Part shown: positions 3,206 through 12,954 of the stretch, piece by piece
Numbering within the stretch: the first letter of the stretch is position 1
Layout of the letters: the number at the start of each line of letters is the position of its first letter
Program-made: the position numbers and the translations under genes
Source: Actinoplanes sp. M2I2
Lineage (GTDB): Bacteria; Actinomycetota; Actinomycetes; Mycobacteriales; Micromonosporaceae
DNA length: 64,000 bases
Reading direction: 5' to 3'
NCBI RefSeq assembly: GCF_023544445.1
Contig: NZ_JALPVJ010000018.1
Location: 124,001 to 188,000 of the forward strand
The notes under the pieces: model-generated
Seen by the model: only the letters and a program-made list of their open reading frames with translations
Databases searched by the model: none
What the model was told of the DNA's origin: nothing

Positions 3206-3472
3206 AACTTAGCGGGCGTGGCAGCCGACGTCAACCCCGAGCGCGAAGGGCGCCCATTACCACCGAAAGACGCTCGGCGGCGGCCGATTTCGCCAAGGGG
3301 AAACGGCTCGGAAGGCCAGACCACAAACAAGTCCAACGGTATTTATCACTCTGGGCAATTGGCCCTTCACGTTTGGTTACGCTTCCGGCGAGACGGCCCG
3401 ACGAAGCGCAGCTGGTCGAGGCCCAACACACACCTACCGATGCGGTTCGAAAGACCGTAGGAGGACCAACGC

Positions 3473-5278
3473 ATGCGTAAGTCCACGTCAAAGGTGAAAG
3501 CGCTGGGAGTTACCGCGCTTTCCGTAGGTGCGACGGCGGCCGCCGTTCTCGTCGCACCGTCAGCGGCATTCGCCGTCGCCGACATCACGTCGATCGCTCC
3601 GAGCGGCGGCCCGACCAACGTTCAGGTCACGGTGACCGGTGCCGCCGGTACCTTCCTCACCGCGACGCCCGCGTTCGTCCTGACGAACGCCACCAGTTGC
3701 CCCGGCACCTACACGGCCACTGCCGCGTCACCGTTCGTGGCATTCGTCGGCACCGGCGGTAGCCGGGTGTCTGAAACCAGGGCGACCTTCACAGTCCCCA
3801 CCACCGCGACCGCCGGTAGCTACAAGGTCTGTGCCTACGGGGGCACGGCCTCGCCGAACAACACTTTGCTGAACGGCGCGACCACTCCTCCTACGTACAC
3901 CGTGGTGCCGAACTCGACCGTCAACCCGACCTCGGGACCGAGCGGCGGCGGCAACACCATCACCGTCACGCTGCCCGCTACCCTGTCGTGGGCGGCGGCC
4001 AATGCGGCGGTCTTCAGCCCGGGCGCGAACAGCTGCTCCGGCACCTACTCGACGAGTGCGGTGACGTCGCCGATCACCCCGAACACGGGCTCCAACACCG
4101 TCGGCACGGTGCCCGTGCCCGTCGGCGTGTCGGGCAGCCTGTCGGCCGCCACTCCGTGGAGTGTCTGCATCTACTCCGGAGCTTCTCTGGTCAACGGCAC
4201 GACTCCGCTGGTCTCGTCGAGCAGCGCGGCCTACAACGTCTCGCTTCCGGCCGTCAGCCTGAGCAGCTCGATCGGCGGCACGGGCGCCAACCTGGTTGTG
4301 TCGTCGACCAACAACTTCCTGACCGGTGCCACGGCTCCCGCCGTTCTGACCTCGTCGGACGTCTGCCCGGCCACGTACCCGGCCGGCCCCGGAGCCGGCA
4401 CGTACGGCAACGTCCTGAAGAGCGCCAACAACCGCGGTGCTTTCGCGCTGCCGTCCGCGGCCTCGGCCGTGGGTACGACTTACAACGCGTGCATCTACTC
4501 TGCCGCGACCACCGGAGCTCGCCTCCTGGCCAATGCGGCCTACACCGTTGCGTCGCCGCCCACCATCAACAGTGTGGCGAGCGGCGGCATCTCGCCGACG
4601 AGCGGCTCGTCGATCGGCGGTGACACGATCACCGTGACCGGTGCCAACTTCCCGATCACCCCGGGCGCGATCACCGCGAGCCTGGGCGGGGTGGCGCTCA
4701 CGAACATCACGCCGATCGACGCCAGCACCTTCACCGCGGTCACGCCCTCGCGCGCCGCTCAGGCGGGCGTTCCGCTCACCGTGACGACCGCGACCGGTAC
4801 GGCGACGCTCGCGTCGGCGTTCAACTACGTGAACGGCATCATCGCCTCGCCGAACACCGCTCCGAACACCTCCAACATCTGGGTGAACATCCGGGGTGTC
4901 GGCTTCCAGTCGCTCAACCTCGACACGGCGACGACGATCCTCACCGCCACTGGTGGCGCGGCCACTGCAGCGCGTATCTATCTCGTTGACGCTCGGGGCA
5001 CCACTGGCAACGTTTACACGCCGGGTGCCAACAACCCGGCTGTGGCCGAGTGCGCCACGCCCACCGTCATCAACGACACCGAACTGTTCTGCAATCTAAA
5101 CCTAATCAGCGGTGCGATCACGCTCAACGCCAGCACTGCCATTCCCAACGCCACTAGCACCCGAGTGCAGAACGGCACCTACACGCTGACCGTGGTCAGC
5201 GACGGCTCCCCGGCCGCGAGCGCTCCCACGCAGAGCGTCGTGTCCAGCGGCTCGACGTTCACGGTCGCCGACTTCTAG
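3473..5278 (+). CDS. Secreted IPT/TIG-domain protein 1
   Basis: 601 residues. A strong RBS (AGGAGG) lies 8 bases before the ATG. The N-terminus is a Sec signal peptide (MRKSTSK, hydrophobic run, AAFA cleavage near residue 34). The mature part is Thr/Ser/Gly-rich with repeated beta-sandwich-like segments, each with one or two Cys in a context such as SCPGTYT or SCSGTYS. A canonical IPT/TIG domain at about 361-450 carries SPTSGSSIGGDTITVTG. The last 130 residues are shared with the secreted protein at 7120-8382 and both end in SSGSTFTV. No LPXTG or membrane anchor is seen, so it is extracellular or loosely wall-bound. IPT/TIG domains are Ig-like folds used in adhesion and ligand binding; the ligand is unknown. 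Confidence 0.85.
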   Translation: MRKSTSKVKALGVTALSVGATAAAVLVAPSAAFAVADITSIAPSGGPTNVQVTVTGAAGTFLTATPAFVLTNATSCPGTYTATAASPFVAFVGTGGSRVSETRATFTVPTTATAGSYKVCAYGGTASPNNTLLNGATTPPTYTVVPNSTVNPTSGPSGGGNTITVTLPATLSWAAANAAVFSPGANSCSGTYSTSAVTSPITPNTGSNTVGTVPVPVGVSGSLSAATPWSVCIYSGASLVNGTTPLVSSSSAAYNVSLPAVSLSSSIGGTGANLVVSSTNNFLTGATAPAVLTSSDVCPATYPAGPGAGTYGNVLKSANNRGAFALPSAASAVGTTYNACIYSAATTGARLLANAAYTVASPPTINSVASGGISPTSGSSIGGDTITVTGANFPITPGAITASLGGVALTNITPIDASTFTAVTPSRAAQAGVPLTVTTATGTATLASAFNYVNGIIASPNTAPNTSNIWVNIRGVGFQSLNLDTATTILTATGGAATAARIYLVDARGTTGNVYTPGANNPAVAECATPTVINDTELFCNLNLISGAITLNASTAIPNATSTRVQNGTYTLTVVSDGSPAASAPTQSVVSSGSTFTVADF

Positions 5279-5317
5279 TCACCAGGCGACTCGCGTAAAG
5301 CCCGACGAGTCATAGCA

Positions 5318-5346
5318 GAAGCCCGGAGCCATTGGCTCCGGGCTTC
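5318..5346. terminator. Bidirectional terminator hairpin
   Basis: A perfect 13-bp stem (GAAGCCCGGAGCC) with the 3-nt loop ATT, followed by TCCTTGTT. It lies between the convergent IPT/TIG gene and the first two-cysteine membrane protein gene and can serve both. Confidence 0.9.
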
Positions 5347-5359
5347 TCCTTGTTCAGGC

Positions 5360-6067
5360 TCAGCGGCCGGCCCACACCTTGTCGATCAGGGCGACACTCC
5401 CCCGCTTCGACGGTTCCGCTCCGGTGGCCACAGTGAAGACGCTCCGATCCGCGCTGACCCGCCAGCAGACCAGCAACGTGGGCCGCTTCCGAGCCGGCTC
5501 GTCCCGGCTGAGCCGGAAGGTCTGCGAGCATCGTGAGGTCCCCACCGGCACGCCCCGGTCGGCCACCCATCCGAGTTCCCGCTGCCCGGTCAGGTCCTGA
5601 TCCGCCGAGACGACCCGAATGCCGTCCACCGTCCGTACGACGACGTCGGCGTCGTTCACCACGCCTCCGCCTCCGACGAGCGGCCGCCGGACAGTCGTGC
5701 CGGCTTCCACGTTCGCTCTCCGGGCAGCGGCCCACTTCTCCGCAACGGCCCGGGACACGTCCCCGGCCTCCATCAAAGACTGGATCTCCCGCTCGGGCGC
5801 CCGGCTCGCGGCCGCCGTAGTCGCCCCCGCGCCGCCGGCCGGAGCAGGGGCCGCCGTAGGCGCTCCCGCGCTGTCGGCCGGGGCGGCCGCCACCGGCAGC
5901 CTCCTCTCGGGTGAGGTGGGGTCGTCCCACGCCAGCAGTCCGACGCCGGCGCTGAGGAGACCGAGCAACCCGGTCGCTCCGGCCGTGACAGCCAGCTTCC
6001 GGCGCCGGGTGAAGGGATTGCCGTTACGGACGGATACTTCTGCGGCGCCCGTTTTCTGGTCGCGCAT
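5360..6067 (-). CDS. Membrane-anchored two-cysteine domain protein, copy 1
   Basis: 235 residues from an ATG at 6067 with AAAGGA upstream. Basic N-terminus, one membrane helix (about 23-47), an Ala/Pro-rich linker, then an extracellular C-terminal domain of about 95 residues. That domain has DLTGQRELGWV, a Cys at 180, FRLS, LLVCWR with Cys 201, RSVFTVA and PSK. The same domain occurs at 6224-6949 and 10462-11232. In all three the two Cys are exactly 21 residues apart, which suggests a disulfide. I do not recognise a named family. It is convergent with the IPT/TIG gene and shares its terminator. Topology is inferred from positive residues before the helix. Confidence 0.8.
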   Translation of the reverse strand: MRDQKTGAAEVSVRNGNPFTRRRKLAVTAGATGLLGLLSAGVGLLAWDDPTSPERRLPVAAAPADSAGAPTAAPAPAGGAGATTAAASRAPEREIQSLMEAGDVSRAVAEKWAAARRANVEAGTTVRRPLVGGGGVVNDADVVVRTVDGIRVVSADQDLTGQRELGWVADRGVPVGTSRCSQTFRLSRDEPARKRPTLLVCWRVSADRSVFTVATGAEPSKRGSVALIDKVWAGR

Positions 6068-6223
6068 TTTCTTGTCCTTTGCAGTTGTCGGCAACGTCGA
6101 ATCACCATCGGCGAATCGACCTCTCAAAACTCCGATGCTGTCACGGACGAAGGTCGCGGAAACGCAGATCGGCCGATCGCCCCGAGGCGACCGGCCGATT
6201 GCCGTACGTTGTCGAATGCGAGC

Positions 6224-6949
6224 TCAGGAAAGCTTCGCCCAAGCCTTGGTGATGGCCGCGACGCTTGCTTCCTTCGACGGCCGCGCCTTCGGGTTGACCG
6301 CGACGGTGTAGACGCTGCGCTCCGCGCTCGTCCGCCAGCACACCAGCAAGGACCGGCGTTCCATCGGCTTCATGTCGTTGCTCAGACGGAACTTCTGCGT
6401 GCACTGGGCCGGGCCTACCGGCTCGCCTTCACCGCCGACCCAGGACAGCTCTTCGTAACCGGTGAGGTCAGCCCGCGCCGACACCACCTTCAGCGTCCCT
6501 TCCGGTGACCGGGCGGACCCGAGATTCTCCACCTTCACGTCTTTCACCGTGGTCAGTGACTTGCTGCTGATGCCCCGCCGCAGCGGCACGCCGTCGGCGG
6601 CGGCCTTGCTCCGGGCGGCGACGATCTCCTTGGAGACCTCGGGGTCCACCTTCTGGACGGCCGTGGCCGCGGGCGACACCGGAGCCGTGACCGTCGGCGA
6701 CGCCGACGAGGTGGTCGGGGTCGACGACGTGACCGGCGCGCTCGAGGGTGCCGGGTCCGCGCTGGTGACCTGGGGCGCCGCCGGCGCGGCGACATCGCGC
6801 AGCTCGGTGTCGTCTCTCGAGTTCTGAACGATCAGGAGTCCGCCGACGCCCAGGACCGCCGCCAGTCCTACCGCTCCGATGGCGGCCTTGCGCTGGGTCG
6901 AGATGCCGGCGCGGCTCTTCGATGAGGGCTCGTGTCCGTGTTCGGCCAT
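6224..6949 (-). CDS. Membrane-anchored two-cysteine domain protein, copy 2
   Basis: 241 residues from the ATG at 6949; an ATG three codons upstream is possible but leaves no room for the GGAAAG ribosome site. Short cytosolic tail, one membrane helix (about 22-42), a Ser/Thr/Pro linker, then the C-terminal domain with DLTGYEELSWV, Cys 183, FRLS, LLVCWRTS (Cys 204), RSVYTVA and RPSK. It is the closest relative of copy 1, which lies downstream on the same strand 156 bp away, so the pair may be a tandem duplication. It is divergent from the second IPT/TIG gene at 7120. Function unknown. Confidence 0.8.
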   Translation of the reverse strand: MAEHGHEPSSKSRAGISTQRKAAIGAVGLAAVLGVGGLLIVQNSRDDTELRDVAAPAAPQVTSADPAPSSAPVTSSTPTTSSASPTVTAPVSPAATAVQKVDPEVSKEIVAARSKAAADGVPLRRGISSKSLTTVKDVKVENLGSARSPEGTLKVVSARADLTGYEELSWVGGEGEPVGPAQCTQKFRLSNDMKPMERRSLLVCWRTSAERSVYTVAVNPKARPSKEASVAAITKAWAKLS

Positions 6950-7119
6950 GCGTCTCATCTTTCCAGGAGGCGTGGCAAATCTGGCTCAAAGCCATCGAAC
7001 CATCCGCCATCGGGACCATATCCCGCGTTTTCCGCAAACCCCGGAGCCGGGCTCACTAGGCTCCACGTGCGCCGACTCCACTCGCCGGCCGCTGCCTCAG
7101 CCATCGGGAGGATTACGCT

Positions 7120-8382
7120 GTGCGCACCGTTCCGCTCGTTCGCGCCGCCTTGGCGAGTTGCGCGTCCACCGCGCTCATCGTCACCGCCACCGCCACGGCC
7201 GCGGCGGCTGCGCCCCCGGTGATGACGCTCAGCAGCATCGGTGGGCCGAGCGGCGGTGGCAACACCATCACCGGCACGGTCGCCGCCACCGCGACGAACC
7301 CGGGGCCGTTCCCGGCCGGCGCCAGTCCGACGGTTCAGTTCCAGTACGTCGGGGGCAAGTCGACCGCCTGCAGCACCAGCGCCAAGGCCGTCGCCGCCAT
7401 CGCCGGGGAGGGCACCACCACGACGGCCGGCGTGCTCACCGTCGACCCCGACCTGGTGAAGCGGATCTCCCAGACGAAGATCGGCTTCCAGGTCCCGGCC
7501 GCTTCCTACCCGGCCACGGTCGACGGCCAGGCCAGCACGGTCAACCCGTCCGGGCTCGTGCTGATCGGCAACCAGACGACGGCGAAGTGGAACATCTGCG
7601 TCTACGACAGCGACTCGACATCGACGAGCACCCTGCTCGCCACCGCGCCGTACACGCTGGCCGTGCGGCCGCTGATCAGCGCTGTCCTGCCGGCGAGCAG
7701 CCCCGTCTCGGGCGGACAGGCGATCACGGTGACCGGTGTCGGGTTCTCCGCCGCCGGGAACTCGACCACGGCGTCCATCGGCGGCGCCTCGCTCACCAAC
7801 GTCCGGGTCGCGGCCAACGGCAAGAGCTTCACCGCGGTGACGGCGGCGCGGTCGGCCGGCGCCAATCTGACGCTCACCGTCAACACTCCGGGCGGCCCGG
7901 TGATCAGTTCCGATCCGGACAACAACGGCAAGGAAGCGGACGGCGACCCGCTGACGGCGGATACGCCGATCTATTTCGAGTACAGCAACGGCGTGACCGT
8001 CACGCCTGACACTGCACCTCCCGGATCCAGAGTCAACATCTCGGTCCGGGGAGTCGGCTTCCAGCAGCTGACCTTCAAAGACACGGCCGCCGCGACGGAT
8101 GCGACCGCACACGTCTTCCTCGTGAAGGACGCCTACGACCCGGCCACCAACCGCGGCGTACAGGAGTGCAAGCAGGTGCTGGTGGTCAACGACACCGAGC
8201 TCATCTGCACCCTCGACCTGAAGGGTGACCGCTTCAACCCCGACGGCACCAGCGCAAGCGGTCCGGTACCCGAGGGCAGCTACACCGTGACCGTTGTGGC
8301 CAGCGGCGCGACGACCGCCGGTGACGCGGCCAAGGCGACGATCGTGAGCAGCGGCTCGACCTTCACCGTCAGCCCGTTCTGA
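7120..8382 (+). CDS. Secreted IPT/TIG-domain protein 2
   Basis: 420 residues. A GTG start is chosen because GGGAGG sits 8 bases upstream and a signal peptide follows at once (MRTVPLVRAALAS, cleavage in AAAAA-PPV near 31). It has an opening repeat with GGPSGGGNTITGTV and an IPT/TIG-like domain at about 186-260 (SSPVSGGQAITVTGVGFS). Its C-terminal part of about 130 residues is homologous to the end of the IPT/TIG protein at 3473 (VSVRGVGFQQL-type start, NDTELICTLDL, ending SSGSTFTV). It probably has the same extracellular role. It lies 108 bp upstream of a subtilase on the same strand, so the two may be co-transcribed. Confidence 0.85.
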   Translation: MRTVPLVRAALASCASTALIVTATATAAAAAPPVMTLSSIGGPSGGGNTITGTVAATATNPGPFPAGASPTVQFQYVGGKSTACSTSAKAVAAIAGEGTTTTAGVLTVDPDLVKRISQTKIGFQVPAASYPATVDGQASTVNPSGLVLIGNQTTAKWNICVYDSDSTSTSTLLATAPYTLAVRPLISAVLPASSPVSGGQAITVTGVGFSAAGNSTTASIGGASLTNVRVAANGKSFTAVTAARSAGANLTLTVNTPGGPVISSDPDNNGKEADGDPLTADTPIYFEYSNGVTVTPDTAPPGSRVNISVRGVGFQQLTFKDTAAATDATAHVFLVKDAYDPATNRGVQECKQVLVVNDTELICTLDLKGDRFNPDGTSASGPVPEGSYTVTVVASGATTAGDAAKATIVSSGSTFTVSPF

Positions 8383-8490
8383 CCCGATCACCCGGCCTCT
8401 GAGCCGGCAACGCATCTGCACCACGGAAAAGTCTGGCGACAGCCGACGCACGGCCGATTCCTCTCCCTGACCACCAAGGGGAGGACGACC

Positions 8491-10428
8491 ATGAAGAAGC
8501 ACCTGCGCCGTTATGCGGTTGGCGCACTTGCCATCGGCGCCGTAGCCGGAGGCGCCGCGATCGCCCTGCCCACCACTGTCACGTCGGCGAGCGAGTGGCA
8601 CCCGGCCACGTACAACCTGACCGAGACCCCCGACGAACTCCTGCCGACCACCGTGTCGACGCAGGCGCCCGTGCGCGTCGTCACCACGAGCCTCGACGCC
8701 GACGGCAAGCCGGTCATCAAGGTCACCACCGCCACCAGCAAGACCGCCGCCGCCAAGGCCGTCAAGGCCGGCCAGAGCGCCCAGAACGCCGTAGGCGTCG
8801 AGCTCGACGCGGTCACCACAGCCACCGCCGTTCCCACCGGCAGCGACTCGTATCGCAGCCAGCAGTGGGACTTCAGCAAGATCTCCGTCCAGACCGCCTG
8901 GCCCAAGTCGACCGGTTCCGGCGTGACCGTCGCCGTGCTGGACACCGGCGTGGACGCAAACCACCCGGACCTGGCCGCCAACGTCCTCTCCGGCTATGAC
9001 GCGGTCGCCGACAAGGCCGGCGTCAGCACCGACCCCAACGGGCACGGCACGCACGTCGCCGGGACCATCGCGGCCGTCACCGGCAACGGGCTGGGCATCA
9101 GCGCCATCGCGCCCGATGCCAAGATCCTTCCCGTACGGGTACTCGGCTCGAACGGGTCGGGCTACATGTCCGACGCGGCCGAGGGCATCGTGTGGGCCGC
9201 CGACCACGGGGCGAGCGTCATCAACATGTCGCTCGGCTCCTCGTCGAAGGTCAGCGCCGTCACCAACGCCATCACGTACGCCCGCAGCAAGGGTGTCACC
9301 GTCGTCGCCGCGGCCGGGAACGAGCGGGCCAAGGGCAGCCCGACCAGCTACCCCGCCGCCGACGCCGGCGTCATCGCGGTGGCTGCGACCGACTCGTCCG
9401 ACAAGGTGGCCACCTATTCGAACGCGGGCAGCTACGTCGACGTGGCCGCGCCCGGCTCCTCGATCCTCAGCACCTATCCGACGGCGCTGGGCAGCAAGAC
9501 CGGGTACGTCTCGATGAGCGGCACCTCCATGGCCGCCCCGCACGTCGCCGCGGTCGCCGCGCTGCTCGAGGCCTACCAGCCGGCGCTGACCCCGGACCAG
9601 GTGCAGGCCGCGCTGGAGAGCTCGTCCGTCGACCTGGGCCCGAAGGGCCGCGACAACGACTTCGGCTACGGCCGCATCGACGCCGCCGCCGCACTCGCCG
9701 CGGTCACGAAGACCCCCACGAGCCCGGCCACCACGAGCCCGGCCCCGACCACGAGCCCGACCACGAGCCCGGCCCCGACCACGAGCAGCCCCACCCCGTC
9801 GCCCTCCAAGACCACGACCGGCGCTCCGACCCCGACCCCGTCGGCCAGCAAGCCGACCGCGACGCCGACCCCGAGCAAGACCACCACCAAGCTCGCGCCC
9901 ACCATCACCGTCACCACCTCGCCGACCTCCGCCGTCTACGGCAGCACCAGCACGATCACCTACACCGTGACCGCGTCCGGCTCGGCCTGGGCCGGCAAGG
10001 CCGTACAGATCGGCCTCGCGAGCGCCGGCTCGTCGAGGTACAGCTTCACCAACGCCAAGACCGACGCGTACGGCCGGGTGGCGATCTCGGTGAAGGCCAC
10101 CGCCAGCTTCGACATCAAGCTGGTCGTCCCGGCCACCGCCACCTCGGTGGAGGTCGTCTCGCCGCTCACCACCTTCACGGTCCGGAGCCAGGCGGCGGTC
10201 CGGAGCCAGGCCGCGCACTCGCTCGACGTCGTGCTGACCGGGCCGACCGGGCAGAAGGTCGCGGTTCAGGAGTACGTGAAGGGCAAGTGGGTGACGGTCC
10301 GCGCGTTCACCGCGGCCAAGGCTCACACCACCGTCACCGGTCTGCCGTCCGGCGCGACGGTCCGCGTGGTCGTCCCGACCACGACCGAGGTCGCCGGCGT
10401 CACCACCGCTTCGATCAAGGTCGCCTGA
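8491..10428 (+). CDS. Secreted S8 subtilisin-family protease 1 with C-terminal beta domain
   Basis: 645 residues, with GGGGAGG before the ATG. Signal peptide (about 1-33), then a short propeptide-like region. The catalytic domain has Asp151 (AVLDTGVD), His185 (GHGTHVAG), Asn277 (AAGN) and Ser346 (GTSMAAP), so the triad and oxyanion Asn are complete. A Thr/Ser/Pro linker (about 405-465) is built from repeats of TSPAPTT. An Ig-like C-terminal part (about 466-645) holds a duplicated RSQAA. It should be an active extracellular protease. Neighbours are an IPT/TIG protein upstream and, convergent, the third two-cysteine protein. A second, closely related subtilase follows at 11323. Confidence 0.95.
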   Translation: MKKHLRRYAVGALAIGAVAGGAAIALPTTVTSASEWHPATYNLTETPDELLPTTVSTQAPVRVVTTSLDADGKPVIKVTTATSKTAAAKAVKAGQSAQNAVGVELDAVTTATAVPTGSDSYRSQQWDFSKISVQTAWPKSTGSGVTVAVLDTGVDANHPDLAANVLSGYDAVADKAGVSTDPNGHGTHVAGTIAAVTGNGLGISAIAPDAKILPVRVLGSNGSGYMSDAAEGIVWAADHGASVINMSLGSSSKVSAVTNAITYARSKGVTVVAAAGNERAKGSPTSYPAADAGVIAVAATDSSDKVATYSNAGSYVDVAAPGSSILSTYPTALGSKTGYVSMSGTSMAAPHVAAVAALLEAYQPALTPDQVQAALESSSVDLGPKGRDNDFGYGRIDAAAALAAVTKTPTSPATTSPAPTTSPTTSPAPTTSSPTPSPSKTTTGAPTPTPSASKPTATPTPSKTTTKLAPTITVTTSPTSAVYGSTSTITYTVTASGSAWAGKAVQIGLASAGSSRYSFTNAKTDAYGRVAISVKATASFDIKLVVPATATSVEVVSPLTTFTVRSQAAVRSQAAHSLDVVLTGPTGQKVAVQEYVKGKWVTVRAFTAAKAHTTVTGLPSGATVRVVVPTTTEVAGVTTASIKVA

Positions 10429-10446
10429 CGAAGCACCGCAAGCCGA

Positions 10447-10479
10447 GGACCCCGGGGCTGCTCAACGGCCCCGGGGTCC
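10447..10479. terminator. Bidirectional terminator with a stop codon in its loop
   Basis: A perfect 12-bp stem (GGACCCCGGGGC) with a 9-nt loop. It follows the subtilase stop on the plus strand. On the minus strand the TGA of the two-cysteine protein (10464-10462) lies inside the loop, so one arm of the stem encodes that protein's last residues. Confidence 0.9.
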
Positions 10480-11232
10480 GACGCGTAGCCGGGCCCATTC
10501 CCGGTCGATAACCGCGACGCTCTCACCCGACGACGGGCGTCCCTGCTCGGCCACGGCCACGGTGACCACGCTGCGGCTCGGCGACGTGCGCCAGCACACC
10601 AGCATCGACGGCATCACCCGTACCCGTTCCCCGGACGCCGACCGCACCGTCTTGGTGCAGCGGGCCGCACCGACCACCCACCCCGGGTCGCCCGCGATGG
10701 CCAGTTCCGGCCGGCCCGTGAGGTCGAAGCCGGCCGAGGTCACCCGGATCGTGCCCGAATCGGTCCGCTCGTCGTGCTTGGTGAGCCGGGCCGCGGCCGC
10801 CACACCCGGCGACGCGGCCGGAGTGGGCGAGGCCGAGGAGGGCGGCGGCGGCACGGGGCTGGCCTCCTGTCGTACGCCGGCACGGGTGACCCGCCCGATC
10901 GCCGGCCCGGCGGCCCGGGACCGCGACGCCGCGGCCGACGGCCGGGAGGGCGACGGCGACGGCAGCGGCGCGATCGACCTCGGCTCCCGCAGGGTTGTCG
11001 TGCGGGACAGGTCGATCAGCTGGCTCTGCACGACGAACGCGCCCGCCCCGGCCATCGCGGCCAGGCCGGCCAGCCCCACGCCGAGCTGTTTGCGCCGCTG
11101 GTTGCGCCGTTCCCGGGCCAGCGATCGGTAGACACCGTTCTCGTCCTGCACTGTCATCTGCGCGGGGTCCTCGTCCCAGGGCGGATCGGTCGCGGGGCGA
11201 CCTCGGTCCGATCGTTCCACCGAGACGGACAT
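10462..11232 (-). CDS. Membrane-anchored two-cysteine domain protein, copy 3
   Basis: 256 residues. A longer cytosolic N-terminus (about 1-50, acidic then strongly basic) precedes one membrane helix (about 51-70) and a Pro/Ser/Ala linker. The C-terminal domain shows FDLTGRPEL, Cys192, LVCWRTS (Cys213), RSVVTVAV and RPSS. The 21-residue Cys-Cys spacing is kept, although FRLS is replaced. It lies between the two subtilases: convergent with the first and divergent from the second, whose start is only 90 bp away. No clear ribosome site is visible. Function unknown. Confidence 0.8.
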   Translation of the reverse strand: MSVSVERSDRGRPATDPPWDEDPAQMTVQDENGVYRSLARERRNQRRKQLGVGLAGLAAMAGAGAFVVQSQLIDLSRTTTLREPRSIAPLPSPSPSRPSAAASRSRAAGPAIGRVTRAGVRQEASPVPPPPSSASPTPAASPGVAAAARLTKHDERTDSGTIRVTSAGFDLTGRPELAIAGDPGWVVGAARCTKTVRSASGERVRVMPSMLVCWRTSPSRSVVTVAVAEQGRPSSGESVAVIDREWARLRVGPRGR

Positions 11233-11322
11233 AGCGCTCTAAAACCACCGAACGAACGGCGAAACCGAGTCGCACCGCATCGCTCCCCGTCATGTCAACC
11301 GGCGCTGCCGAATCGGTCTGAC

Positions 11323-12954
11323 ATGAAGAAGCTGAGTGTGGGTGCCGTCGTCCTGACCGCCGTCGCGGGTGCTGTCGCGCTGGCGCTGCCGGAGCCGGAG
11401 CCGGCCTGGCGGCCGGTGACCCACAATCTCTCCGTGAGCCCGGCCGGTCTGCTGCCGCCGGTGGTCTCCCAGACCCGTCCGGTACGGGTGGTGAGCACCC
11501 GCCTCGACCGCGACGGCCGTCCCGTCGTGGCCGCCCGCACCGCCACCGACCGGGACTCGGCCGCGGCGCTGGTCGCCGACGGGCAGCGCGCGCCGGGCGC
11601 CGTCAGCGTCGAGCTGGACGCCCCGGTGACGGTGGCCCAGGTCGACCCGCTCCTGCCCGCCCAGTGGGATCTCGCCCGCGTCCGGGTCGACGGCGCCTGG
11701 CCGCGCTCGACCGGCGCCGGGACCACGGTCGCGGTTGTGGACAGCGGTGTCGACGCCACGCATCCCGACCTCGCCGGGCAGGTGCTGCCGGGCGCCGACT
11801 TCATCACCCACACCGAGGGCACGTCCGTCGACCCGCACGGGCACGGCACGCACGTGGCCGGCACGATCGCCGCGCTCACCGGCAACGGCGTGGGCGTGGC
11901 GGGCATGGCGCCGCAGGCCCGCATCCTGCCGGTCCGGGTGCTCGGGGCGGACGGCTCCGGCTACATGTCGGACGTGGCCAACGGCATCGCGTACGCCGCG
12001 GACCACGGGGCCGACGTCATCAACATGTCGATCAGCTCGACCTGGCAGGTCGCCGCGGTGAGCAACGCCGTCGCGTACGCGCGCAGCAAGGGTGTCGTGG
12101 TCGTGGCGGCCGCCGGCAACGCCCGCGCCCAGGGCAGCCCGGTCAGTTTCCCGGCGGCCGACGCGGGTGTCATCGCCGTCGCCGCGACCGCCTGGAACGA
12201 CAGCGTCGCCGGATACTCGAACCGCGGCGGGTACGTCGACGTGGCCGCCCCGGGCAGCGACATCCTCAGCACCTTCCCGGGCGACCGCTACGTACGGATG
12301 AACGGCACGTCCATGGCCGCGCCGCACGTCGCCGCCGTGGCCGCGCTGCTGAAGGGGGCCGACCGGTCGCTCACGCCCGACCAGGTGGAGTCCGCGCTGG
12401 CGTCGTCGGCCGTCGACCTGGGCCAGCCGGGGCGCGACGACGACTTCGGCGCCGGTCTGATCGACGCCGCGGCCGCCCTGTCCACCGTCGCCCCACCGAG
12501 CCCCAGTCCGGCCGTCACCACCGTCGCGCCGGCGCCGGCCCCCGAAGTCACGACCACCACGCCGGAACCGCCGGCCACGGTCACGCCCAGCCCGACGCCG
12601 AGCGAGACCCCCACGTTCAGCGAAACGCCCACCCCCAGCGAGACGCCCACGCCCACCGATTCGTCCAGCCCGGCCCCGAGTGCCACCGCGACGCCGAGCC
12701 CGAGTGCCACCCCGTCGTCCGCAGCGCCCGTCCGGCTCGACATCCGGCTCGTCCGCCCCGGCCCGGGCAAGCTCACCGTCGTCGTCGTGGGAGTCACCGG
12801 CGTACCCGTCGAGATCCAGCAGCGGGCGGGTGCGGAGTGGACGACCGTGCGCACCTACCCGGCCACCACTATCGCCCGGTTCGTCGACCTCGTCCCGGGC
12901 CTGGAGCACCGGGTCGTCGTGTCGGGCGCCACAAGCGACGTGATCCGGCTCTGA
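11323..12954 (+). CDS. Secreted S8 subtilisin-family protease 2
   Basis: 543 residues. The ATG at 11323 opens directly into a signal peptide (MKKLSVGAVVLTAVAGAVALALP). The frame is open far upstream, but that stretch is antisense to the two-cysteine gene. Catalytic residues are Asp140 (VVDSGVD), His174 (GHGTHVAG), Asn266 and Ser330 (NGTSMAAP). After the protease domain come a Ser/Thr/Pro linker with SETPTPSETPTP repeats and a short beta domain similar to the end of the first subtilase. No convincing RBS precedes the ATG. It is a paralogue of 8491-10428, and the pair flanks copy 3 of the two-cysteine protein. Confidence 0.95.
   Translation: MKKLSVGAVVLTAVAGAVALALPEPEPAWRPVTHNLSVSPAGLLPPVVSQTRPVRVVSTRLDRDGRPVVAARTATDRDSAAALVADGQRAPGAVSVELDAPVTVAQVDPLLPAQWDLARVRVDGAWPRSTGAGTTVAVVDSGVDATHPDLAGQVLPGADFITHTEGTSVDPHGHGTHVAGTIAALTGNGVGVAGMAPQARILPVRVLGADGSGYMSDVANGIAYAADHGADVINMSISSTWQVAAVSNAVAYARSKGVVVVAAAGNARAQGSPVSFPAADAGVIAVAATAWNDSVAGYSNRGGYVDVAAPGSDILSTFPGDRYVRMNGTSMAAPHVAAVAALLKGADRSLTPDQVESALASSAVDLGQPGRDDDFGAGLIDAAAALSTVAPPSPSPAVTTVAPAPAPEVTTTTPEPPATVTPSPTPSETPTFSETPTPSETPTPTDSSSPAPSATATPSPSATPSSAAPVRLDIRLVRPGPGKLTVVVVGVTGVPVEIQQRAGAEWTTVRTYPATTIARFVDLVPGLEHRVVVSGATSDVIRL

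Follow-up and report, generated by a model that had tools for sequence, protein, structure and literature searches.

Seven consecutive genes at positions 3473-12954 of a 64,000-nucleotide stretch of the Actinoplanes sp. M2I2 genome (the whole stretch is called the window below) belong to three families only: secreted IPT/TIG proteins (IPT), secreted subtilases of peptidase family S8 (S8), and an unnamed family of membrane-anchored two-cysteine proteins, here labelled C2. The initial annotation had already recognized this composition, and the open reading frames (ORFs), Pfam scores, and C2 alignment agree with it. Across related genomes, we find that 138 of 146 C2 genes lie tail to tail with an IPT/TIG, IPT-like or S8 gene, that the IPT gene is the constant partner, and that C2 is restricted to genomes with flagellin. 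We suggest that the island is an expanded form of a two-gene surface module that is conserved in zoospore-forming Micromonosporaceae, and in which C2 would act as a partner-specific tether or export chaperone; we hold this reading tentatively, as a serious possibility that falls somewhat short of probable.

C2 Genes Converge on Genes for Secreted Proteins

We searched a C2 profile against 354 genomes of the family (Micromonosporaceae) and 249 genomes spread over the order, and examined up to 20 kb of sequence surrounding the matches in 70 family genomes and in G403, a genome from another family of the order. This gives 74 loci in 71 genomes with 146 C2 ORFs, one of which is a 41-residue fragment; L057-L065 are excluded from the count because their contigs are already among the 74 loci. 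Genes were called by script, and IPT and S8 genes were labelled by HMMER with the window proteins (E ≤ 1e-6 and E ≤ 1e-10, respectively), the labels including some gene pieces, e.g., in L120. Five neighbors of unknown family were relabelled IPT-like, four of them with a TIG score above the cut-off and the fifth (L118), which has no Pfam match, by hand; without this hand label the 138 convergent genes become 136. A weak C2 match in G071 (E = 3e-4) from a sequence search was dropped, as the family-wide profile search has no row for that genome; the other weak C2 rows of that sequence search are in G000:C66, at 3.28 Mb of G140, and in G029:C38.

The convergent C2 genes face their partner directly in 117 cases and through at least one tandem C2 gene in 21, and 44 of them converge directly on an S8 gene. 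For comparison, 119 of the 860 neighboring pairs without C2 in the same loci are convergent. The gap between C2 and its direct convergent partner ranges from -32 to 489 bp. Among the eight non-convergent C2 genes, five have a same-strand IPT or IPT-like gene directly downstream, one has a same-strand IPT gene upstream (L041, Pilimelia), one lies at a contig end, and one is solitary. The initial annotation proposed checking whether C2 always sits beside a subtilase or IPT/TIG gene in Micromonosporaceae; it does, with a single solitary gene among 145, and a C2 family occurring mostly without these partners in other genomes did not appear. The broader claim that the families work together stands as far as co-occurrence goes, and is refined here to a constant IPT partner, a convergent order, and a one-sided dependence.

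The pair is kept amid different surroundings in other genera (L035, L046, L049, L051, L055). In L059 the C2 pair is inverted relative to a conserved flank, yet it is still convergent, and in G403 (L104) C2 again faces an IPT gene. Many loci of the window's genus share a flank of NUDIX, kinase-like, vWA-type, and adenylosuccinate synthase genes (names from reading and labels). In five loci labelled g7 (L035 at 10576, L038, L042, L043, L054), the gene directly upstream of C2 presumably encodes a GroEL-type chaperonin (540 residues).

Other neighbors recur as well. A small cysteine-rich protein is encoded at most four genes from C2 in 35 of the 74 loci (e.g., L040 5966-6256; a single member was scanned and carries a DUF1540 domain), and another protein family at most three genes from C2 in 11 loci (e.g., L040 6467-7591; here the single scanned member scores just above the cut-off for glycosyl hydrolase family 26). 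The solitary C2 gene (L090, 8133-8936) adjoins a lipase-like gene and is near a gene for a 921-residue secreted repeat protein (names read from the sequence), in a genome with a contamination estimate of 8%.

The IPT Gene Is the Constant Partner

An IPT gene is present in 71 of the 74 loci and an S8 gene in 53, with no S8 gene shown in the other 21; these partner counts use seven hand labels for IPT-like genes, and absence means absence from the stretch read, which in some cases ends with the contig. In 17 loci there is a single C2 gene with a single IPT gene and no S8. The minimal unit is C2 plus IPT, and the IPT/TIG gene is the constant partner. Across the 74 loci, the copy number of C2 follows that of IPT and S8 combined (Spearman 0.71, p = 1e-12, uncorrected for relatedness). 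A search with IPT2 in a draw of 150 family genomes matches 32, namely every one of the 22 genomes that match C2 strongly plus ten that do not, and the three C2-negative genomes of the window's genus that were tested are all without IPT.

The tree of 145 C2 domains separates the genes by partner. S8-facing and IPT-facing labels require six changes among 117 genes; counted against all other tree rows, the labels require 9 (S8) and 14 (IPT) changes, compared with shuffled means of 37.8 and 48.8, on a tree built from few columns and with many weak forks. The two types are common to the genus and predate the source genome. The initial annotation's idea of a paired duplication of both partners is therefore too simple.

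We looked for anchors in the exported partners. An LPXTG-like motif is absent from all 119 IPT proteins, and only two of them carry a C-terminal stretch with a hydrophobicity above a Kyte-Doolittle (KD) value of 1.6; among 77 S8 proteins, three have the motif and seven the stretch. That the partners are mostly anchorless and C2 is anchored is the main reason for reading C2 as a tether. The IPT proteins end in an SSGSTFTVxP(F/Y)-type motif at or a few residues from the C-terminus, and variants of it also occur in the copies without C2.

The C2 Protein Family

C2 proteins begin with a short, basic N-terminal stretch, which is followed by a single membrane segment, a linker in which Pro, Ser, Thr, and Ala abound, and a conserved C-terminal domain of approximately 85 residues with two cysteines. 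C2A and C2C are 38% and 30% identical to C2B. Exactly two cysteines are found within the last 95 residues in 143 of 145 C2 proteins and three in the other two; the conserved pair may form a disulfide. A membrane segment anchors 134 of the 145, eight have a lipobox call (that of L110 is doubtful), and the calls for the remaining three are weak, including one for a protein with masked sequence. Since some C2 proteins are lipoproteins, the conserved domain must sit outside the membrane and a cytoplasmic part is apparently not needed. Judged from these predicted anchors, the outside domain is kept as the anchor type changes, so that the anchors are interchangeable.

The family has no match in the named families tested. 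For the three window proteins there is no Pfam match at E ≤ 1, a single NCBIfam row at 15.4 bits (cut-off, 450), and nothing in PHROGs at E ≤ 0.1. Pfam scans of 34 C2 members give only scattered rows (best E = 0.0075) and list no sensor domain at E ≤ 10. By these profile searches, C2 appears to belong to no named family in Pfam, NCBIfam or PHROGs. In a first alignment of the 34 members, no stretch was conserved enough for a scan of the collection.

The AlphaFold2 (AF2) model of the C-terminal 110 amino acids of C2B, made with 16 sequences, has a predicted local distance difference test score (pLDDT) of 84.7 and an order of strands, a short helix, more strands, and a long C-terminal helix. Foldseek returns no row below E = 0.17 for this model, which does not by itself indicate a new fold. 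VIA-align gives Z values of about 4 to 5.7, a range that the tool itself calls middling: RseB (5.7), the immunity protein Tsi3 (5.5), the PknH extracellular domain (4esq; Z = 5.5, 96 aligned residues, root-mean-square deviation 3.9, 6% identity, with other rows of equal Z), and PsbP/DcrB-type rows. A sequence search of C2 against solved structures stays at chance level (best E = 0.23).

A Leader RNA before IPT Genes

A conserved block upstream of IPT genes emerged from a search for shared promoters; among the upstream regions of C2, IPT, and S8 genes, we find no promoter words convincingly common to all three. A loose pattern applied to both strands of the loci gives 416 matches, and a stricter sequence filter leaves 62 distinct elements. 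These precede an IPT gene in 59 cases, an IPT-like gene in two (L124, with TIG above the cut-off, and L108, just under it), and the IPT gene of L070, which is outside the gene table, in one. In these 62 sequences, the element leads into a Shine-Dalgarno-like sequence and a start codon, for a total of 95-108 nt.

The leader covariance model R1 was built from 49 of the 62 elements. Searched with cmsearch against the source genome, it gives a single strong match, at 3374-3449 before IPT1 (64.2 bits, E = 2.5e-12; the next row has E = 0.8). No R1 leader is found for IPT2, and the island holds one R1 match only. Over the loci at E ≤ 0.01 there are 79 matches in 60 of the 74 loci (the window and 78 sites in L036-L136), and the first same-strand gene downstream is IPT in 77 and IPT-like in two. 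Matches as such are expected, since the model was built from these loci, but this does not explain why they are confined to IPT starts. The distance to the called start is 20-26 nt in 37 of the 79 and 299-473 nt in four. The leader precedes 77 of 119 IPT genes. Two g7 loci reach R1 only at E values of 0.01-0.015, and outside the window's genus the leader is present only in G403 (L104). IPT genes with the leader face C2 more often than those without it (57 of 77 vs. 14 of 42; Fisher p = 3e-5, uncorrected for relatedness).

Hairpin P2 covaries, with double changes in four of five pairs in 49 sequences, for which none of 500 shuffles reaches any of the five covariation measures, and in five of six pairs in 58 sequences. 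In hairpin P3, which lies directly before the Shine-Dalgarno sequence, the MAFFT columns contain no double change; read sequence by sequence (n = 57), its arms are TC/GA in 26, TT/AA in 15, and CC/GG in three. As judged from the aligned sequences, the leader has the compensatory base changes in helices by which a structured RNA is recognized. Helix P1, which would enclose both hairpins and pair at the start codon, has at least four of five pairs in 46 of 58 sequences, little covariation, and three of five pairs in the window. We do not claim it, as it is energy-folded in many members, unsupported by covariation, and weak in the window. Rfam 15 has no match at its gathering score in the window, and around three leaders it gives chance-level rows only. 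The main claim about C2 does not rest on the leader.

The Island in the Window

The features of the island are collected in the table. The initial annotation's observation that every two-cysteine gene faces a secreted-protein gene is borne out: C2A converges on IPT1 across an 81-bp gap, C2B and IPT2 are divergent, and C2C is convergent with S8a (33-bp gap) and divergent from S8b. The start of C2A is the ATG at 6067; its reference sequence for comparisons is 5360-6061.

Features of the IPT/S8/C2 island, in coordinates of the window
Feature	Position	Strand	Description	Basis
IPT1 5' leader	3374-3472	+	GTTACGCT block, hairpin P2, hairpin P3, Shine-Dalgarno; ends at start codon	Covariance model, alignment, covariation
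IPT1	3473-5278	+	Secreted IPT/TIG protein, 601 amino acids	ORF; Pfam TIG at residues 372-450, 35.4 bits
C2A	5360-6067	-	Two-cysteine protein, one N-terminal transmembrane segment, extracellular C-terminal domain	ORF, alignment, neighbor table
C2B	6224-6958	-	Two-cysteine protein, in tandem with C2A, divergent from IPT2	ORF, alignment, AF2 model
IPT2	7120-8382	+	Secreted IPT/TIG protein, 420 amino acids	ORF; Pfam TIG at residues 184-258, 45.7 bits
S8a	8491-10428	+	Secreted subtilase, 645 amino acids, D/H/S motifs present	Peptidase_S8 222.7 bits; motifs in translation
C2C	10462-11232	-	Two-cysteine protein, S8-facing lineage	ORF, neighbor table, tree
S8b	11323-12954	+	Secreted subtilase, 543 amino acids, D/H/S motifs present	Peptidase_S8 199.1 bits on 11317-12954; gene call

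Both IPT proteins exceed the PF01833 (TIG) cut-off of 20.9 bits, and the AF2 model of IPT2 consists mainly of strands (pLDDT 68.8). S8a and S8b belong to PF00082 (Peptidase S8), with scores above its cut-off and Asp, His, and Ser motifs in both; the translations contain DTG or DSG, HGTHVAG, and GTSMAAPH, which we take to be the catalytic motifs. For the S8 proteins, PADLOC lists subtilase rows and weak rows of IetS, and for C2A it lists a DruD row (E = 0.0056); we read all of these as generic.

In the 9.58-Mb source genome, the C2 domain profile matches three places and TIG (E ≤ 0.01) two, all of them in the island, whose composition is far from chance. A single-sequence search of the genome with whole C2B gives three extra weak rows (E = 4.4e-4, 0.175, and 1.95); they span query residues 20-119, i.e., the membrane segment and linker, and are unsupported by the domain profile.

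Taxonomic Range and Flagellin

The C2 profile is positive in 70 of the 354 family genomes, in six of 44 genera; 60 of the 70 belong to the window's genus, which has 67 genomes in the set, and the other ten to five genera. Among the 249 order-wide genomes, C2 is present in three: the source genome, one family relative, and G403. The C2-bearing genera named in collection records are Actinoplanes, Amorphoplanes, Paractinoplanes, Pilimelia, and Catenuloplanes. Flagellin (PF00669) is present in 93 of the 354 family genomes, which include all 70 that are C2-positive, and G403, the only C2 genome found outside the family, has both a convergent C2-IPT pair and flagellin. Actinoplanes sporangia release flagellated zoospores, according to excerpts of the literature on the genus. 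The restriction of C2 to its partners and to flagellin genomes suggests that motile-spore bacteria have a cell-surface system that has so far gone unstudied, with a possible role in the spore and a possible location on spore or hypha.

Interpretation and Alternatives

The core of the module we propose would be a secreted IPT/TIG protein and a C2 protein whose two-cysteine domain is carried outside the membrane on a flexible linker. C2 would most likely bind the mostly anchorless IPT protein and either hold it at the membrane or chaperone its export, in each case for a specific partner. In the window's genus, many IPT genes carry a dedicated structured leader in addition. One C2 lineage would have been redeployed to a secreted subtilase; in much of the genus, subtilases supplement the module together with a C2 that belongs to them, and may mature or remodel surface material. 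Contact between the proteins, processing of IPT proteins by the protease, and a role of IPT proteins as adhesins, as the initial annotation envisaged, are all conceivable within this scheme.

Several points weigh against it. Convergent genes cannot share one mRNA. IPT proteins are found without C2: five genomes labelled g44 have IPT but no C2 in the loci read (L066-L069 and L071-L077 cover IPT without C2), and IPT copies at a second site (L066-L069, L071, L072) have neither C2 beside them nor a leader. IPT proteins therefore do not need C2, and the dependence is one-sided. (The remaining five IPT-matched, C2-less genomes, labelled g32 and g34, have weak TIG-type matches, and the two of them that were read are without C2.) The solitary gene of L090 is a C2 gene without partner, one among the 145 not cut by a contig end. 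The separation of the C2 tree by partner could reflect orthologous position alone, and the fold comparisons give only middling VIA-align scores and no Foldseek row below E = 0.17. As to the leader, R1 matches none of the ten loci from the family's other five genera, which make up most of the 14 loci without a match, and six leaders folded singly show no clear gain in stability over shuffled sequences (z = -1.12, -1.87, -2.44, 0.70, 0.55, and -0.38). As to motility, 23 genomes have flagellin without C2, so flagella do not require C2, and the flagellin link is partly shared ancestry because 60 of the 70 C2-positive genomes are one genus. Finally, the window has 97 sites within three mismatches of the TcrA box (consensus from PMC12691653), with 97.1 expected, and so offers no hint that the TcrA regulon is involved.

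Four other explanations deserve consideration. C2 could protect the cell from the subtilases as an inhibitor or immunity protein bound to the membrane, as suggested by the direct convergence of 44 C2 genes on S8, clustered on the tree, and by the Tsi3 row of VIA-align. However, 21 loci have C2 and no S8 in the stretch read, 17 of them with a lone C2 and a lone IPT gene, and a Z of 5.5 is middling by the tool's own scale; we consider this explanation unlikely. The convergent arrangement could itself be the function, with overlapping 3' transcription and mutual antisense RNA control of C2 and its IPT or S8 neighbor, and with no contact between the proteins. The short tail-to-tail gaps, kept in changed surroundings, speak for such control, but the gap length is very variable and six C2 genes adjoin IPT non-convergently, which makes this quite unlikely in our view.

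The same VIA-align comparison, with RseB at its head and the PknH domain over 96 residues, would fit a C2 that senses its extracellular partner and signals into the cell. The approximately seven C2 proteins with a lipobox presumably have no cytoplasmic part, however, and no sensor domain is listed by Pfam for the 34 members, so that we regard a sensor as improbable. Least probable of all, and to our mind scarcely credible, is that the genes are merely co-inherited in one lineage and do not work together. The concentration of C2-positive family genomes in one genus, many with the same flank, is consistent with co-inheritance; it is disfavored because the surroundings have changed, with the pair standing in unrelated contexts in other genera and in another family. 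The copy numbers also track each other, and the three C2-less genomes of the genus lack IPT as well.

The tether or export chaperone can be extended to a bolder proposal, possible but doubtful: C2 would be a new family of extracellular recognition domains that hold unrelated partners, IPT/TIG proteins and subtilases, at the membrane, joined in Actinoplanes by a leader RNA that controls IPT translation, and together they would form a surface-assembly system of zoospore formers made of obligately convergent pairs.

Literature searches on Actinoplanes TIG proteins, a sporangium subtilisin of A. missouriensis, and AMIS63/64/65 gave no account of these genes. The passages of PMC10733313, PMC12691653, PMC13293333, PMC7275007, PMC7682106, and PMC11205660 likewise contain neither an account of them nor binding, expression or proteome evidence; that of PMC10733313, on Actinoplanes, mentions AMIS63 once, and that of PMC13293333 mentions RNA-seq over the A. 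missouriensis life cycle. The module is a candidate surface system that is conserved and that combines an unnamed domain family with an RNA leader; it is present in the tractable A. missouriensis, whose locus we take to be L039. The persistence of the convergent pair makes it testable why two genes stay tail to tail rather than in an operon.

Comparison with Known Systems

The window IPT proteins resemble known IPT/TIG proteins in scoring above the TIG cut-off. They differ from other members of PF01833 in being secreted actinobacterial proteins with the C-terminal motif described above, often with a leader of their own, and with a convergent membrane partner. The window S8 proteins share the profile match and catalytic motifs of the subtilases, and the mycosin model TIGR03921 is the nearest in NCBIfam, as the top row; however, their scores of 253.5 and 252.1 bits stay under its cut-off of 278.75. 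Like the PknH ectodomain, the C-terminal domain of RseB, Tsi3, and the PsbP/DcrB-type folds, the C2 domain is predicted to be a small extracytoplasmic alpha/beta domain, but solved structures yield no sequence hit to it below E = 0.2. The IPT leader is similar to riboswitch-like leaders that control translation, with conserved hairpins, compensatory changes, and an end at the Shine-Dalgarno sequence and start codon. In contrast to them it matches no Rfam family, has one strong copy in the source genome, and is a putative regulator. A surface protein with a dedicated membrane partner is a known kind of system; the new parts here are the unnamed domain family and the previously undescribed leader.

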